Virus record (IMG/VR): IMGVR_UViG_3300034121_000852
Span: 1-25,600 of that record
From: a virus
Reading direction: 5' to 3' (one strand)
Length of the DNA: 25,600 bases
Shown here: positions 4,133-25,600 of the stretch, piece by piece
How the letters are laid out: each line of letters begins with the position of its first letter
Position numbering within the stretch: position 1 is the first letter of the stretch
Notes under the pieces: generated by a model
The model's input: the letters and a program-made list of their open reading frames with translations, nothing else
The model's database searches: none
Told to the model about the DNA's origin: nothing
Program-made: the position numbers and the translations under genes

Positions 4133-4191
4133 GGGATACACATTTTGGTTCATTATAGATTGAAGTTTTGTGTAGTTGCTGTAGGTATCCC
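4133..4191 (-). ncRNA. Stem-loop between permuted tRNA-like RNA and tRNA-Thr
   Basis: GGGATAC (4191-4185) pairs with GTATCCC (4139-4133) over a 45-nt loop on the minus strand, placing a 7-bp stem directly 5' of tRNA-Thr. No ORF and no U-tract. It may be part of the same precursor as the RNA at 4201-4323. Confidence 0.4.
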
Positions 4192-4200
4192 AATAAGGTC

Positions 4201-4323
4201 AGGTTTCTGTTTTTGCTTACCAGCGCGTTTACCAATTTCGCCACAATTATCTTTCGATAAGAGGTAGGACTCGAACCTACAATGTACCGGTTCTATATGC
4301 TGTTTTATTGCTGTAAGAAACCT
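4201..4323 (-). ncRNA. Circularly permuted tRNA-like RNA
   Basis: On the minus strand a tRNA 3' half comes first: T-arm GTAGG-TTCGAGT-CCTAC, then CTCTTATC. A tRNA 5' half follows: GATAATTG, TG, then D-arm GCG-AAATTGGTAAA-CGC. The two acceptor strands pair through a GAAA loop (TTATC-GAAA-GATAA; 6 of 8 pairs overall). The outer flanks are complementary: 4317-4323 with 4201-4207 (7 bp), extended by CTTACAGC pairing with GCTG(G)TAAG. This is a tRNA fold whose open ends are at the anticodon arm. I cannot assign an anticodon. Two fused tRNA remnants would be the dull alternative. Confidence 0.5.
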
Positions 4324-8644: not shown

Positions 8645-9334
8645 AAAATAATCCAAGGTTATTGTCTGTGATTCTACTAATTTATCAAAGATGATTTTAG
8701 AAAAATCAGCATCAGATCTGTAGTGTACACCAGCCTGAATTCTGGTAAAAGCTACTTCTTCACAAAAAGTTGAAATTTGATCAGCTAATTCAGGATATTT
8801 TTGACCAATGATCCAACCACATGTATATGAATCAAGAGCATGTCCACTTGGATAAGCTGCACTTGAGGCATTAGTAGGAATTACAGGATACAATTCTAAA
8901 TCTAATGCTCTTGCTAATTGAGCAGGTCTTGGTCTATTATAAAAATGTTTTAACTTATAAAGCAAAGGATCTGTAAATGCAGTTACTGCTTGTAGAAGAA
9001 GCATCTCATCAGTTCCACCTAGTTCAATTAATCTTTCATTGATTAAAAGTAACATGTCAGTTTCAGCTCTTTTAATAAACTCAATTTCTGAATCGCTTAA
9101 TTCTTTTTGCAAAGATATATTTTCTTCTATTTCAGAAAGAGTTTCTTGACTTGAATTTCTTGGATTTTGAAAGTGTAAGAGTTGTTCATAGACACCATTT
9201 TCTTTGGTCATCTTAATGATAACTGGTTTTTCTTTGGAATATGTTAAGCGATGTTTCTTAGCTTCGTTGCCGTAACCAAGAGCATCGACTTCTTTAAATC
9301 CAGCGAATTCAGAAAATGATTTTAACTTTGACAT
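8636..9334 (-). CDS. PAP2-type acid phosphatase / vanadium-peroxidase-like protein
   Basis: A 232-residue protein with all three PAP2 phosphatase motifs: K-x6-RP in KLKHFYNRPRP (residues 127-137), PSGH (162-165) and R-x5-H-x3-D in RIQAGVHYRSD (198-208), whose His204 is the expected nucleophile. No transmembrane helices are evident, so it is a soluble class A/VCPO-like phosphatase rather than a membrane lipid phosphatase. The N terminus (SKLKSFSEFAGF) resembles that of the protein at 6581-7624 and might be a virion-targeting tag. It is not known whether it acts on lipids, nucleotides or sugars. It converges with the plus-strand gene. Confidence 0.88.
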   Translation of the reverse strand: MSKLKSFSEFAGFKEVDALGYGNEAKKHRLTYSKEKPVIIKMTKENGVYEQLLHFQNPRNSSQETLSEIEENISLQKELSDSEIEFIKRAETDMLLLINERLIELGGTDEMLLLQAVTAFTDPLLYKLKHFYNRPRPAQLARALDLELYPVIPTNASSAAYPSGHALDSYTCGWIIGQKYPELADQISTFCEEVAFTRIQAGVHYRSDADFSKIIFDKLVESQTITLDYFLL

Positions 9335-10229: not shown

Positions 10230-10306
10230 ATGAAGTGGGAGGAATTCAACCTACCGTCACGGTCTTTTACGACTTGCTCTCATTAATGTCACTGAGCTAC
10301 ACTTCA
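10230..10306 (-). pseudogene. tRNA-like element with abnormal D, anticodon and T loops
   Basis: A perfect acceptor TGAAGTG/CACTTCA and D-stem GCTC/GAGC are retained. The D-loop is enlarged and lacks the GG pair, the anticodon arm reduces to a 3-bp GTC/GAC stem without U33, and the T-loop reads TTGAATT instead of TTCGAAT with one T-stem mismatch. It sits between good tRNA-Glu and tRNA-Met genes. It is either a decaying tRNA or a tRNA-shaped RNA with another job. No anticodon can be assigned. Confidence 0.55.
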
Positions 10307-11221: not shown

Positions 11222-11228
11222 ATTTAAC

Positions 11229-11283
11229 AGGATGCAGTTTTGCTTTTTCCAATAAAAGTTTTTAAATTTGCTGTATGCATCCT
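11229..11283 (-). ncRNA. 55-nt stem-loop between epimerase gene and tRNA-Ile
   Basis: AGGATGCA (11283-11276) pairs perfectly with TGCATCCT (11236-11229) over an A/T-rich loop that contains a further CTTTT/AAAAAG helix. It follows the epimerase stop and precedes tRNA-Ile by 8 nt. No U-tract follows, so a processing or stability element is more likely than a terminator. Confidence 0.45.
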
Positions 11284-11294
11284 AATTTCTTTAT

Positions 11295-11316
11295 TTTACC
11301 AATATGTCAAAGATCT
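11295..11316 (-). repeat. Repeat element AGATCTTTGACATATTGGTAAA, copy 1
   Basis: Overlaps the end of the epimerase gene (CTT TGA are its last codon and stop). The same core recurs at 13738-13759 and 14101-14121 on the same strand, each time shortly upstream of tRNA genes. TTGACA resembles a -35 box but no good -10 follows here. Confidence 0.5.
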
Positions 11317-13415: not shown

Positions 13416-13488
13416 CTGACTAAAAAGGAATTGAACCTTAATCTTGCGTCCCTATTACGTTCTGCTGTGCACCTTTACACCATAATCA
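13416..13488 (-). pseudogene. tRNA-like element with no valid anticodon arm (1)
   Basis: Near-complete acceptor TGATTAT/TTAGTCA, D-arm GTGT-AAAGGT-GCAC and T-loop TTCAATT are present. The anticodon region offers only CGT-7 nt-ACG without U33, and the T-stem is four base pairs. First of three adjacent abnormal tRNA-like units. Confidence 0.5.
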
Positions 13489-13539
13489 ATCGAGGTTTTC
13501 GAACACCTCAGGTACCAAGTTAATTACTCCTGGACTTTG

Positions 13540-13636
13540 TAGTCAGTGTAGGATTCGAACCTACAGCCACAAGATTGACTTTCTGAGCCTTGTGGTTTAT
13601 CATGTAGTCATACAGATACCATTCTGAAGACTGACT
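13540..13636 (-). ncRNA. 97-nt tRNA-like gene with expanded anticodon domain (2)
   Basis: Perfect acceptor AGTCAGT/ACTGACT, D-arm CAGA-ATGGTA-TCTG and T-arm GTAGG-TTCGAAT-CCTAC, with A73. Between them lie extra bases. One fold uses TGACT/AGTCA as anticodon stem with a 25-nt loop that ends in CTCAGAA (a normal-looking loop with anticodon CAG plus an 18-nt insert). The other uses CCACAAG/CTTGTGG, a 7-bp stem with a 15-nt loop. The two are mutually exclusive or knotted. Either a tRNA with a tiny intron-like insert or a non-decoding tRNA mimic. Confidence 0.5.
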
Positions 13637-13641
13637 GTTTG

Positions 13642-13735
13642 TAATCATAATTGGATTCGAACCAATTCCAGCTTTACAATAAAGAATCCAAAGATTCAAC
13701 CTTGAGGGGTGCTCCCAACCAATGGGCTTATGATT
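13642..13735 (-). ncRNA. 94-nt tRNA-like gene with abnormal anticodon domain (3)
   Basis: Perfect acceptor AATCATA/TATGATT, D-stem CCC/GGG, T-arm ATTGG-TTCGAAT-CCAAT and A73. A class II-like variable hairpin CTTTA-TTG-TAAAG is possible. The anticodon arm is poor: the best loop, CCTCAAG, has only three of five stem pairs and lacks U33. A competing hairpin GAATC-TTTG-GATTC occupies the same segment. First unit downstream of the promoter at 13768-13807. Confidence 0.5.
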
Positions 13736-13737
13736 AT

Positions 13738-13759
13738 TTTACCAATATGTCAAAGATCT
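13738..13759 (-). repeat. Repeat element AGATCTTTGACATATTGGTAAA, copy 2
   Basis: Identical over 22 nt to the copy at 11295-11316. It lies between the class 2 promoter and the tRNA-like gene at 13642-13735, so it would be in the 5' leader of that transcript. Confidence 0.55.
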
Positions 13760-14100: not shown

Positions 14101-14121
14101 TTTACCAATATGTCAAAGAAC
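14101..14121 (-). repeat. Repeat element TTCTTTGACATATTGGTAAA, copy 3
   Basis: Shares 19 nt with the copies at 11295 and 13738. It ends 3 nt before tRNA-Cys. A further partial copy (TTCTTTGACATA) is at 10886-10899 upstream of the coiled-coil gene. Confidence 0.5.
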
Positions 14122-14661: not shown

Positions 14662-15318
14662 TTAGTCCCACCATTTTTCGATGTTTTCTTCCATCAATTT
14701 AAAGAGTAATTTTCTTGCTCTGTTATGATTATAGTGACCAATATTCATTGCGATTCTTTGTTTAGCATCAGTTTCAGTTTCACCATCTCTTGGTTCTATT
14801 CCAAAGATCTGTAGTTTTTCATCTGCTAAAACCTTTTTATAAGCTGATGGATGTTTCTTAAAGAAGTCATCAAAGTTTTCTTTAAGTTGTCTTGACTCCC
14901 ATGAACTATAACCTTCTTTGTCAGGTACTGGTTCAAACCAATGTTTAGTTTCATGATAATCCATATATTCTGAACTGTAATGCTCGTCTTTAACTAATTT
15001 CATTAGACGAACACAAGTCATCATAATTTCAGCATCTCTTTGTGACCTTGTATGCCAATCTCTGTCACCAATATATTTAGATTGGGCTTTAAGTTTGTGC
15101 ATCATAACTTCAAAGATATAATGGTCATCCCAATGGCGATCTTTCCAGATAATAGGAAACCAATACCAAAGATTCTTTAGTCCAGTCCAAATAGTCTTAT
15201 GTAAATACATGCCATCATTGCTCCACCACATTGGAATGAACTCAAGTTTTCTAATGATCCATGATTTACTTTCACGTTCTTCAGCCCATTGGTCGAATAT
15301 GTCTTTTTCTGGTTCCAT
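14662..15318 (-). CDS. Hypothetical Trp-rich phage protein, 218 aa
   Basis: A 218-residue soluble, Trp- and His-rich protein (IPMWWSNDGMYLHKTIWTGLKNLWYWFPIIWKDRHWDDH near the N terminus; NIGHYNHNRARKLLFKLMEENIEKWWD at the end). The middle is charged and helical. This kind of protein is a recurrent uncharacterised family in large phages. The H-x-x-D/H-rich segments could bind metal, but no established motif is seen. It is directly downstream of the 68-aa gene and probably in one operon with the sigma factor. Confidence 0.7.
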   Translation of the reverse strand: MEPEKDIFDQWAEERESKSWIIRKLEFIPMWWSNDGMYLHKTIWTGLKNLWYWFPIIWKDRHWDDHYIFEVMMHKLKAQSKYIGDRDWHTRSQRDAEIMMTCVRLMKLVKDEHYSSEYMDYHETKHWFEPVPDKEGYSSWESRQLKENFDDFFKKHPSAYKKVLADEKLQIFGIEPRDGETETDAKQRIAMNIGHYNHNRARKLLFKLMEENIEKWWD

Positions 15319-18209: not shown

Positions 18210-18236
18210 TTTTTAAAATTTTAAGAAATTATGTTT

Positions 18237-23193: not shown

Positions 23194-25600
23194 TTAAGAT
23201 ATTCTATGAGCATATAACCAAGTTACTTTTCCTTTGCCATTCCAATCTTCATTCGTGAAACTATTACCACCTAATTGGACCAGTGGATAATCTTGTGCTA
23301 AAATTGTACAATTACTAGATGCGACTAAATTTATTAATGCCAATTGTCGATTGTCATTAGGTCTTATTATAGCACTAATATGACATGTTACTGGATGATC
23401 TTGAAAACCAGGTATCTGAGCTGTTTTAATTGGCTCAAAATCCTCGTTTAATGTTCCAGCTCCTGTGACCCATGCTAGTGTTATACCATGTTGAAGCGCG
23501 TTATTAAATGAAGTTACATGCGCTTCAACTTCCCATATTTCACCAGATAAGATGTTAATAGCAGTGTATTGTCCACCCGGACTTGTTACTCTATTTAATG
23601 TATCATGTTCAGTACTAAGTGTCATTGGTAAAAATAAATTAACAGGGTTTGGAATGTTAGCTGCTAATACTAGTTGAACGTAACCTGAAACACCTCCACC
23701 TGCACCAGCGGGTCCAGTTGCACCTTGAGCTCCATCAGATCCTGGTGTTCCACCTGGTCCTGGTGTTCCTGCTCCGGTTGCTCCTTGAGCACCTTTTACA
23801 CCAACTTCACCTTTTGCTCCTTGAGCACCTGTTGTACCTAAGTCACCTTTAGCTCCTTGAGCACCTGTCGGTCCAGTTGTTCCAGTTGGTCCAGTTGGTC
23901 CAGTTGGTCCAGTAGTTCCAGTTCCAGTTGCACCTTGCGCTCCATCAACTCCAGATAAACCAGCGGGTCCTGTTGCTCCTTGAGCACCTTGTGGTCCTAA
24001 ATCGCCTTGAGCACCTTGATCTCCTTTTGTACCTAAGTCACCTTTAGCTCCTTGATCTCCTTTTACACCAATTTCGCCTTTAGCTCCTTGAGCACCTGTA
24101 ACACCGATTTCACCCTTAGCTCCTTGAGCTCCAGTAGTTCCAATTCCAGTATCACCTTTATCTCCTTGAGCACCTGTTGCACCTAAGTCACCTTTAGCTC
24201 CTTGAGCTCCATCAATTCCAATTCCTGTTGCTCCTTGATCTCCTTTTGTACCTAAGTCACCTTTGGCTCCTTGATCTCCTTTTGTACCTAAGTCACCTTT
24301 TGCTCCTTGAGCTCCTGTTGCACCTAAGTCACCTTTTGCTCCTTGAGCACCTGTTGCACCTAAGTCACCTTTTGCTCCTTGAGCTCCTGTTGCACCTAAG
24401 TCACCTTTTGCTCCTTGAGCACCAGTAGTTCCAATTCCAGCATCACCTTTTGCTCCTTGAGCTCCTGTTGCACCTAAATCACCTTTAGCTCCTTGAGCAC
24501 CATCTATTCCAATCCCAGTTGCTCCTTGATCACCTTTAGCTCCTTGAGCACCTGTATTTCCAATATTACCTTGAGGTCCTAGATCACCTTTTGCTCCTTG
24601 AGCACCTGTATTTCCAATATTACCTTGAGGTCCTAGATCACCTTTTGCTCCTTGAGCACCTGTATTTCCAATATTACCTTGAGGTCCTAAATCACCTTTT
24701 GCTCCTTGAGCACCTAAGTCACCTTTAGCTCCTTGAGCACCTGTTGCACCTAAATCACCTTTTGCACCTAAATCACCTTTAGCTCCTTGAGCACCTGTTG
24801 CACCTAAGTCACCTTTGGCTCCTTGAGCACCTGTTGCACCTAAGTCACCTTTTGCTCCTTGAGCACCTAAGTCACCTTTTGCTCCTTGAGCACCTAAGTC
24901 ACCTTTTGCTCCTTGAGCACCTGTTGCACCTAAGTCACCTTTTGCTCCTTGAGCTCCTGTTGCACCTAAGTCACCTTTAGCTCCTGTATTTCCAATATTG
25001 CCTTGAGGTCCTAAATCACCTTTTGCTCCTTGAGCACCTGTATTTCCAATATTACCTTGAGGTCCTAAACTACCTTGAGCACCTAAGTCACCTTTTGCAC
25101 CTTGAGCACCTGTTGCACCTAAGTCACCTTTAGCTCCTTGAGCTCCTATTGCACCTAAGTCACCTTTTGCTCCTTGAGCACCTAAGTCACCTTTTGCTCC
25201 TTGAGCTCCTGTTGCACCTAAGTCACCTTTTGCTCCTTGAGCTCCTGTTGCACCTAAGTCACCTTTGGCTCCTTGAGCTCCTGTATTTCCAATATTGCCT
25301 TGAGGTCCTAAATCACCTTTTGCTCCTTGAGCACCTGTATTTCCAATATTACCTTGAGGTCCTAAATCACCTTTAGCTCCTTGAGCACCTGTATTTCCAA
25401 TATTACCTTGAGGTCCTAAATCACCTTTTGCTCCTTGAGCACCTAAGTCACCTTTAGCTCCTTGAGCACCTGTTGCACCTAAGTCACCTTTTGCTCCTTG
25501 AGCACCTAAGTCACCTTTTGCTCCTTGAGCACCTGTTGCACCTAAGTCACCTTTTGCTCCTTGAGCTCCTGTTGCACCTAAGTCACCTTTAGCTCCTGTA
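23194..25600 (-). CDS. Collagen-like tail-fibre protein (partial, N-terminus beyond window)
   Basis: An open minus-strand frame runs from the right edge to 23194, about 800 codons, with its start outside the window. From 25600 to about 23690 it is almost pure Gly-X-Y repeat (typical units GAQGAKGDLGATGAQ and GPQGNIGNTGAQGAKGD), built from 27- and 36-nt DNA units. It contains hardly any Met, so the frame is missed by ATG-based calling. A short Gly-rich hinge (GPAGAGGGVSGY) and a 150-residue C-terminal globular head follow (VQLVLAANIPNPVNLFLP ... VTWLYAHRIS), probably the trimerising or receptor-binding tip. Collagen-like stalks of this kind occur in phage tail fibres. Confidence 0.88.
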   Translation of the reverse strand, partial: TGAKGDLGATGAQGAKGDLGATGAQGAKGDLGAQGAKGDLGATGAQGAKGDLGAQGAKGDLGPQGNIGNTGAQGAKGDLGPQGNIGNTGAQGAKGDLGPQGNIGNTGAQGAKGDLGATGAQGAKGDLGATGAQGAKGDLGAQGAKGDLGAIGAQGAKGDLGATGAQGAKGDLGAQGSLGPQGNIGNTGAQGAKGDLGPQGNIGNTGAKGDLGATGAQGAKGDLGATGAQGAKGDLGAQGAKGDLGAQGAKGDLGATGAQGAKGDLGATGAQGAKGDLGAKGDLGATGAQGAKGDLGAQGAKGDLGPQGNIGNTGAQGAKGDLGPQGNIGNTGAQGAKGDLGPQGNIGNTGAQGAKGDQGATGIGIDGAQGAKGDLGATGAQGAKGDAGIGTTGAQGAKGDLGATGAQGAKGDLGATGAQGAKGDLGATGAQGAKGDLGTKGDQGAKGDLGTKGDQGATGIGIDGAQGAKGDLGATGAQGDKGDTGIGTTGAQGAKGEIGVTGAQGAKGEIGVKGDQGAKGDLGTKGDQGAQGDLGPQGAQGATGPAGLSGVDGAQGATGTGTTGPTGPTGPTGTTGPTGAQGAKGDLGTTGAQGAKGEVGVKGAQGATGAGTPGPGGTPGSDGAQGATGPAGAGGGVSGYVQLVLAANIPNPVNLFLPMTLSTEHDTLNRVTSPGGQYTAINILSGEIWEVEAHVTSFNNALQHGITLAWVTGAGTLNEDFEPIKTAQIPGFQDHPVTCHISAIIRPNDNRQLALINLVASSNCTILAQDYPLVQLGGNSFTNEDWNGKGKVTWLYAHRIS
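23700..25600 (-). repeat. Tandem Gly-X-Y coding repeat array
   Basis: About 1.9 kb of imperfect tandem repeats, each triplet block encoding Gly-X-Y. The 9-nt phase (ACC/TCC every 9 nt on plus) is kept throughout, and longer 27- and 36-nt units are duplicated many times. Slippage or recombination could change the stalk length. The pattern is protein-coding, not CRISPR. Confidence 0.9.

Follow-up and report, generated by a model that had tools for sequence, protein, structure and literature searches.

We conclude that four tRNA-like units lying inside a viral tRNA array are probably working RNAs that do not decode, and in which the insert, rather than the tRNA body, would be the active part. 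The window analysed here, 25.6 kb of an IMG/VR virus record, holds 26 tRNA genes by ARAGORN, which cover all 20 amino acids, together with protein genes for an endolysin, a sigma factor, a guanylate kinase, and a nucleotide-sugar epimerase. The units, designated A (13416..13488, 73 nt), B (13540..13636, 97 nt), C (13642..13735, 94 nt), and D (10230..10306, 77 nt), are all on the minus strand. Comparison among homologues shows that the tRNA body is kept by base pairing and that each family has its own conserved, predicted fold where a tRNA has its anticodon/variable domain: a split stem with two hairpins in C, a pseudoknot in B, a hairpin flanked by AGUA/GAA in A, and, in D, a short hairpin together with an altered core. 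There are four such families in this one window and many more outside it.

None of the four units is among the 26 tRNA calls made by ARAGORN on the window. The Rfam tRNA model (RF00005) reaches 15–16 bits over A, B, and C, compared with its gathering score of 29; the Rfam scan of the window placed no family at gathering score over the units and, beyond tRNA, none that covers them. A canonical anticodon arm (5-bp stem, 7-nt loop, U33) is absent from all four, as an earlier sequence-only reading of this DNA had noted, though C has a split 5-bp stem with a 6-nt loop lacking U33; A has no anticodon arm, B has a 25-nt loop, and D has a 3-bp hairpin. The same reading had called the acceptor and T-arms normal and the D-arms kept. 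That holds for B and C, where tRNA-type pairing is complete, but not for A, whose acceptor stem has 6 bp plus a U:U mismatch, nor for D, whose T-stem is bulged and whose D-loop has no GG. Phage tRNA arrays are annotated by programs that require an anticodon arm, and units of this kind are therefore invisible to them.

An open reading frame beside the units (14662–15318) led to 80 related contigs. Single-sequence folding energies (z of +0.6, −1.8, −0.2, and −1.5 for A, B, C, and D, respectively) do not make the signal visible, and the case for non-chance structure thus depends upon comparative evidence, in the form of compensatory changes, rather than on thermodynamic folding of lone sequences. 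Since the members of a family share descent, the shuffle-based counts given below overstate independence. Covariance models were built for C (R1), A (R2), and B (R3); they return exactly the spans that the sequence-only reading had assigned to these units, correct to the base, with the window copies being part of the training sequences.

Unit C comprises a 7-bp acceptor stem (AATCATA/TATGATT), the D-arm CCC-ATTGGTT-GGG, the split anticodon stem, a T-arm (ATTGG-TTCGAAT-CCAAT, with loop TTCGAAT), and discriminator A followed by CAA. Its insert of 26 nt (13673..13698, minus strand) enters at anticodon-stem positions 41/42, splitting the 3′ strand, and consists of the hairpins GAATC-TTTG-GATTC and TTT-ATTGT-AAA; the loop at the anticodon position is CCTCAA (13702..13707, minus strand). 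Model R1 scores the window copy, on which it was partly trained, at 95.5 bits, and 46 matches fall at 95–124 bits, with the next at 56. The pattern CAAGGTTKART..TTTATKGYAAAG collected 36 distinct sequences, 29 of which were aligned (alignment A1) with 27 pairs. Their common fold has the acceptor, a 3-bp D-stem, the stem N27-C-A-C-C/G-G-T-[insert]-G-N43, and the T-arm, the insert being a covarying hairpin plus TTT-ATGGY-AAA. In this alignment 99.9% of pair cells are paired, and 12 pairs are changed on both sides, in 77 cells, compared with 20.7 in shuffles (0 of 500 reach the observed value) and 0–5 in slid controls. The helix of the insert (40–43/58–61) covaries, and the flanking pair 24:74 (tRNA 27:43) is GC in 20 sequences, UA in 7, and AU in 2. 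The ACC/GGT and TTT/AAA pairs are invariant, and so are read rather than proven. The insert-and-loop core has 96.8% pairwise identity, compared with ~76% for the acceptor and T-stem (76.1% for the acceptor), making it the best-conserved part of the family outside the T-loop. Of the 29 sequences, 25 have TCCCCAA as their loop, and C has A8 where a tRNA has U8.

One copy of C occurs in a 318-kb phage record. A blastn search of 50,697 cultured phages found neither C nor A in any, and C was found in none of 199 genomes of one bacterial family, where 20 candidates per genome were scored without a positive control. Two ideas concerning C were abandoned. Its relatives carry CACCTCC, a sequence also present at the 16S rRNA 3′ end, but the window copy does not have it; and a pairing of GGGGA in A with TCCCC in C fails in L259, where A has GAGG though C keeps CCCC.

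Unit A is a shortened member of its family, with the acceptor described above, a D-arm (GTGT/GCAC), a 2-bp inner stem, and a T-arm; the acceptor mismatch, U7:U66, is common to most relatives. Model R2 gives the window copy, again a training sequence, 78.7 bits, other members 54–104, and the next match 31. Homologues were found in L105, L112, L135, and L139, and by pattern in 20 stretches. Among 22 aligned sequences (alignment A2, 17 pairs), 96.0% of cells are paired and 9 pairs are doubly changed, in 33 cells versus 8.0 in shuffles. The core of the family reads GAACGGAGTA-[variable hairpin]-GAAAGGGGAC, and the AGUA/GAA around the hairpin may be the signature of a loop E (sarcin-ricin) motif. 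The short form is found in the window and in L015; the variable hairpin that most relatives possess has been lost from the window copy.

Unit B has a 7-bp acceptor (AGTCAGT/ACTGACT), a D-stem (CAG/CTG), a T-arm (GTAGG-TTCGAAT-CCTAC), and discriminator A followed by CAA. The sequence-only reading had offered either a 25-nt loop or a 7-bp stem for its middle. Both helices proved to be real; they are not alternatives, since they coexist. The stem at the anticodon position (13576..13610, minus strand) pairs TGACT (13606–13610) with AGTCA (13576–13580) around the 25-nt loop, and within that loop CCACAAG (13589–13595) pairs with CTTGTGG (13567–13573) of the variable region, forming a second helix (13567..13595, minus strand). 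Because the two cross, B is a pseudoknot. Family B has two distinct sequences, that of the window and one carried by both L209 and L228, which R3 scores at 118.6 bits (the window copy being in its training set) and 117.2 bits, respectively, with the next match at 53. Relative to B, L209 has 8 of 27 pairs doubly compensated, 1 singly, and none broken. Both inner helices take part: the first becomes TGCCT/AGGCA, and the second TCGTAAA/TTTACGA, with 4 of its 7 pairs changed on both sides. The small inserts that had been suggested for these units are thus seen in C and in the A family, and in B they take the form of the pseudoknot.

Unit D, which had been listed as a fourth such element, is likewise real. 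It has a 7-bp acceptor, a D-stem (GCTC/GAGC) with a 14-nt D-loop, the hairpin GTC/GAC, and a T-arm with loop TTGAATT. A first search returned no relative and D was considered a decayed tRNA, a view dropped when a wider scan with a D-arm pattern found homologues in L304, L305, L306, L307, and L261 (records of 122–254 kb and others). These have the same T-stem bulge, the same D-loop, and the T-loop TTGGATT, and every member lacks the residues of the D-loop/T-loop contact (no GG in the D-loop, no C56). The five sequences (alignment A4, 19 pairs) are 95.8% paired, with 8 pairs doubly changed versus 3.1 in shuffles. In both the window and L304, D directly follows a tRNA-Met.

Between the window and its close relative L015, units A, B, and C together differ at 1 of 264 sites, compared with 115 of 747 in the spacers (Fisher p = 4e-15). 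Some canonical tRNAs (Pro, Tyr, Val, Arg) have changed more than the three units, perhaps due to exchange. The interval between B and A in L015 is ~250 nt longer and contains two additional T-arm-like pieces, which suggests that whole units are gained and lost. More widely, the strand is that of the nearest tRNA for 34/34 C units and 21/21 A units, at a median gap of 177 and 81 nt, respectively; A and C co-occur in 10 loci, on the same strand every time. The order C-A just before (Asn) Tyr-Trp-Met-Arg-Met-Lys-Val is common to the window, L242, and L249, and L261 has C in that place.

Downstream of the homologue of the gene at 14662–15318, L018, L027, and L083 contain arrays of ~80–174-nt units without ARAGORN calls. 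Most have constant ends, AGTCAGG plus GTGGCGGAATTGGTAGACGC on the 5′ side and ACAGG-TTCGAAT-CCTGT plus CCTGACT-A-CAA on the 3′ side, enclosing unrelated middles. The exact 3′ pattern occurs in at least 120 IMG/VR stretches, with up to 7 copies per stretch among the matches listed. There are at least 167 distinct units, spanning 55–192 nt among the matches listed with a 5′ acceptor strand. A set with the AGTCAGG acceptor and hypervariable middles is common in IMG/VR; it was searched for with one acceptor, so that its constancy is partly a matter of ascertainment, the L018, L027, and L083 arrays having been found otherwise. The same pattern was present in only 8 stretches from ~85,000 bacterial and archaeal genomes, all of them MAG contigs and 6 named Bacteroidota. 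Some of the units have an additional hairpin in the D-loop, and some elsewhere exceed the Rfam tRNA threshold, mainly through their ends. Sixteen small clusters of related middles yielded 41 doubly compensated pairs versus 11.1 expected from column shuffles; hypervariable, therefore, does not mean unstructured.

Further elements were also noted. Units of 156–168 nt at 588 in L107, 5303 in L130, and 991 in L175 have a near-normal anticodon stem; their loop reads TCGTCTC/TCGTCTA, and their insert, GGGTTGACCACAAAGCCGGC..ATTTTGT, is conserved. A short unit (~57–62 nt) in L015 (9960–9990) and L034 (12000–12055), in which TTTGGTTAAAGC or TCTGGTTAAAGC follows the 5′ acceptor strand, is possibly a further family. 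At 18230–18307 of L018, the Rfam model YrlA, which describes the tRNA-like module of bacterial Y RNA, matches weakly (32 bits, gathering score 69).

In the explanation that we favor, the units would be co-transcribed with the neighboring tRNAs, and host tRNA enzymes would mature them by trimming both the 5′ and 3′ ends and adding CCA after the discriminator. Maturation of this type is suggested by the N73-CAA ends, as found in many tRNAs of these phages; of 155 units without an ARAGORN call, 76 have CAA directly after the discriminator, as do 102 of 236 called ones. The tRNA body would permit maturation, lend stability, and provide a tRNA-like shape, and the insert would bind a target in trans. 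In favor of this explanation are the compensatory changes in homologues of A, B, C, and D from distant, uncultured phages, the near-identity of A, B, and C to L015, the conserved core of C, the tRNA strand, the conserved order, and the phage's own tRNAs serving all 20 amino acids. Tentatively, the partner of the insert could be a host factor related to translation or tRNA, tRNA-targeting defenses included. The tRNA enzymes might not take every unit, given the departures from the standard chassis in C (A8) and D (no GG, no C56). We stop just short of favoring the broader proposal that Bacteroidota phages use the tRNA body as a general chassis for a modular class of non-coding RNA, with many folded cargoes, each having its own target.

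The retained acceptor, D-arm, and T-arm could instead mean that the units are decoys through the tRNA body alone, with the acceptor and T-arm soaking up a tRNA-targeting enzyme and the remainder being filler. A full 20-amino-acid tRNA set would suit life under tRNA attack, and phages have been argued to escape tRNA-depleting defenses (PMC10264068). Filler should not be the best-conserved part, however, yet in C the core is at 96.8% and the acceptor at 76%, and we consider this reading unlikely. As to the enzymes that the sequence-only reading had named, a decoy for anticodon nucleases would need the very anticodon loop that is absent, and a decoy for synthetases is at odds with acceptor stems that vary freely provided they pair: there are 10 acceptor sequences across the 29 C units, which would speak for a structural role and not for recognition by one synthetase. 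It is less probable again that the units are antisense or guide RNAs whose middles pair with mRNAs of the host or of rival phages, with the tRNA body acting as carrier. The constant ends and hypervariable middles of the AGTCAGG set are what such RNAs might look like, but those middles are structured (the 41 compensated pairs noted above), the cores of A, C, and D are conserved rather than variable, and antisense matches of at least 14 nt to the unit's own locus occur in just 5 of 176 units, where 0.6% would be expected.

Three further readings keep the units closer to ordinary tRNAs, and we hold each to be more improbable than those above. Removal of the insert from C leaves a tidy cloverleaf whose anticodon stem has 5 bp and whose loop, in most relatives, has 7 nt, as though it were a tRNA precursor with a small intron that decodes once spliced. 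However, the loop TCCCCAA lacks U33, and window C and two relatives have only 6 nt there. Nor would an anticodon arm be left in A or D, B is a pseudoknot, and all 20 isotypes are already encoded by the phage; moreover, bacteria are not known to have an enzyme for such introns. Unorthodox decoding, for example by odd-loop frameshift suppressors, is very improbable: some relatives (L135, L193, L125) do appear with a 5-, 6-, or 8-nt loop on a 5-bp stem, but A, B, and D have no such loop and no anticodon is conserved. Finally, ARAGORN passes the units over and the T-loops of A and D are imperfect, as might be expected of decaying tRNA genes. The sequence-only reading had argued from the intact acceptors that the units are not merely decaying, and had proposed that related phages be compared for compensatory acceptor changes. 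That comparison, now made, found such changes in families A–D which, along with the near-zero change relative to L015, refute decay, and we give it practically no credence.

The closest known RNAs are species 1 RNA (rnaC, NC_000866 70908–71046) and species 2 RNA (rnaD) of phage T4. The T4 record annotates both as small stable RNAs; like our units, they lie in a tRNA cluster, on the tRNA strand. In rnaC, the T-arm (CCGGG-TTCGAAT-CCCGG) is as far from the end as in a tRNA, CAA follows that end, and no anticodon arm is recognizable. An Enterobacter phage has compensatory changes in the T-stem and in one acceptor pair of rnaC, but, unlike in the units, the acceptor stem of rnaC is weak. It shows no homology to A or C (R1 and R2 give at most 16 bits, below ordinary T4 tRNAs). 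Among cultured phages, 716 records contain rnaC, 692 of them over most of its length, whereas A and C were found in none. By layout, then, the units appear to be of the species 1 RNA kind, an unexplained kind, with A and C not being its homologues. Ordinary tRNA (RF00005) has the acceptor stem, D-arm, T-arm, location, and 3′ context in common with the units and differs by its canonical anticodon arm. Both tmRNA and permuted tmRNA resemble them in having tRNA-like ends and other RNA in place of the anticodon domain, but the units are only 72–112 nt long and do not have the G3:U70 pair of tmRNA (in C, U-A in 28 of 29 and U-G in 1; in A, A-U in 19 of 22, G-U in 2, and G-C in 1). The TMER RNAs of gammaherpesvirus 68 also have a viral tRNA-like body that yields a non-tRNA product; they are eukaryotic, however, and their hairpins are outside the tRNA body. 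We found no description of such units in the open-licence literature. If our interpretation is correct, some “tRNA-rich” phage loci would also harbor RNA regulators or antagonists, species 1 RNA, long a puzzle, would acquire many relatives in kind, and the engineered tRNA scaffold would have a natural counterpart.

Several other elements were observed around the arrays. The motif TTTGACATATTGGTAAA occurs in three exact copies on the minus strand, 2 nt upstream of unit C (13738–13754), 3 nt upstream of tRNA-Cys (14101–14117), and at 11295–11311; allowing up to 3 mismatches there are 5 matches versus 0.35 expected, and it is possible that the motif is a promoter or processing signal. Stem-loops with a YACAGCAA-type motif, located near tRNA genes at 11228–11282 (minus strand) of the window, 17797–17937 of L018, and 15140–15200 of L089, recur in related phages and have a weak likeness to Rfam Dicty_Class_I_RNA (E of 0.026 and 0.37). 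A circularly permuted tRNA-like element is found at ~4150–4310 (minus strand) of the window, 15020–15130 of L089, and 17790–17930 of L018, in which the T-arm and 3′ acceptor strand (GTAGG-TTCGAGT-CCTAC CTCTTATC GAAA GATAATT) come before a Leu-like D-arm. The Rfam tmRNA_permuted model does not match this element in the window, and scores 64.6 bits at 8755–9020 of L200, a related phage. Lastly, repeats at 24228–25376 of the window give plus-strand frames of the LLLEHLLHLSHL type, and probably encode a repetitive protein on the opposite strand.
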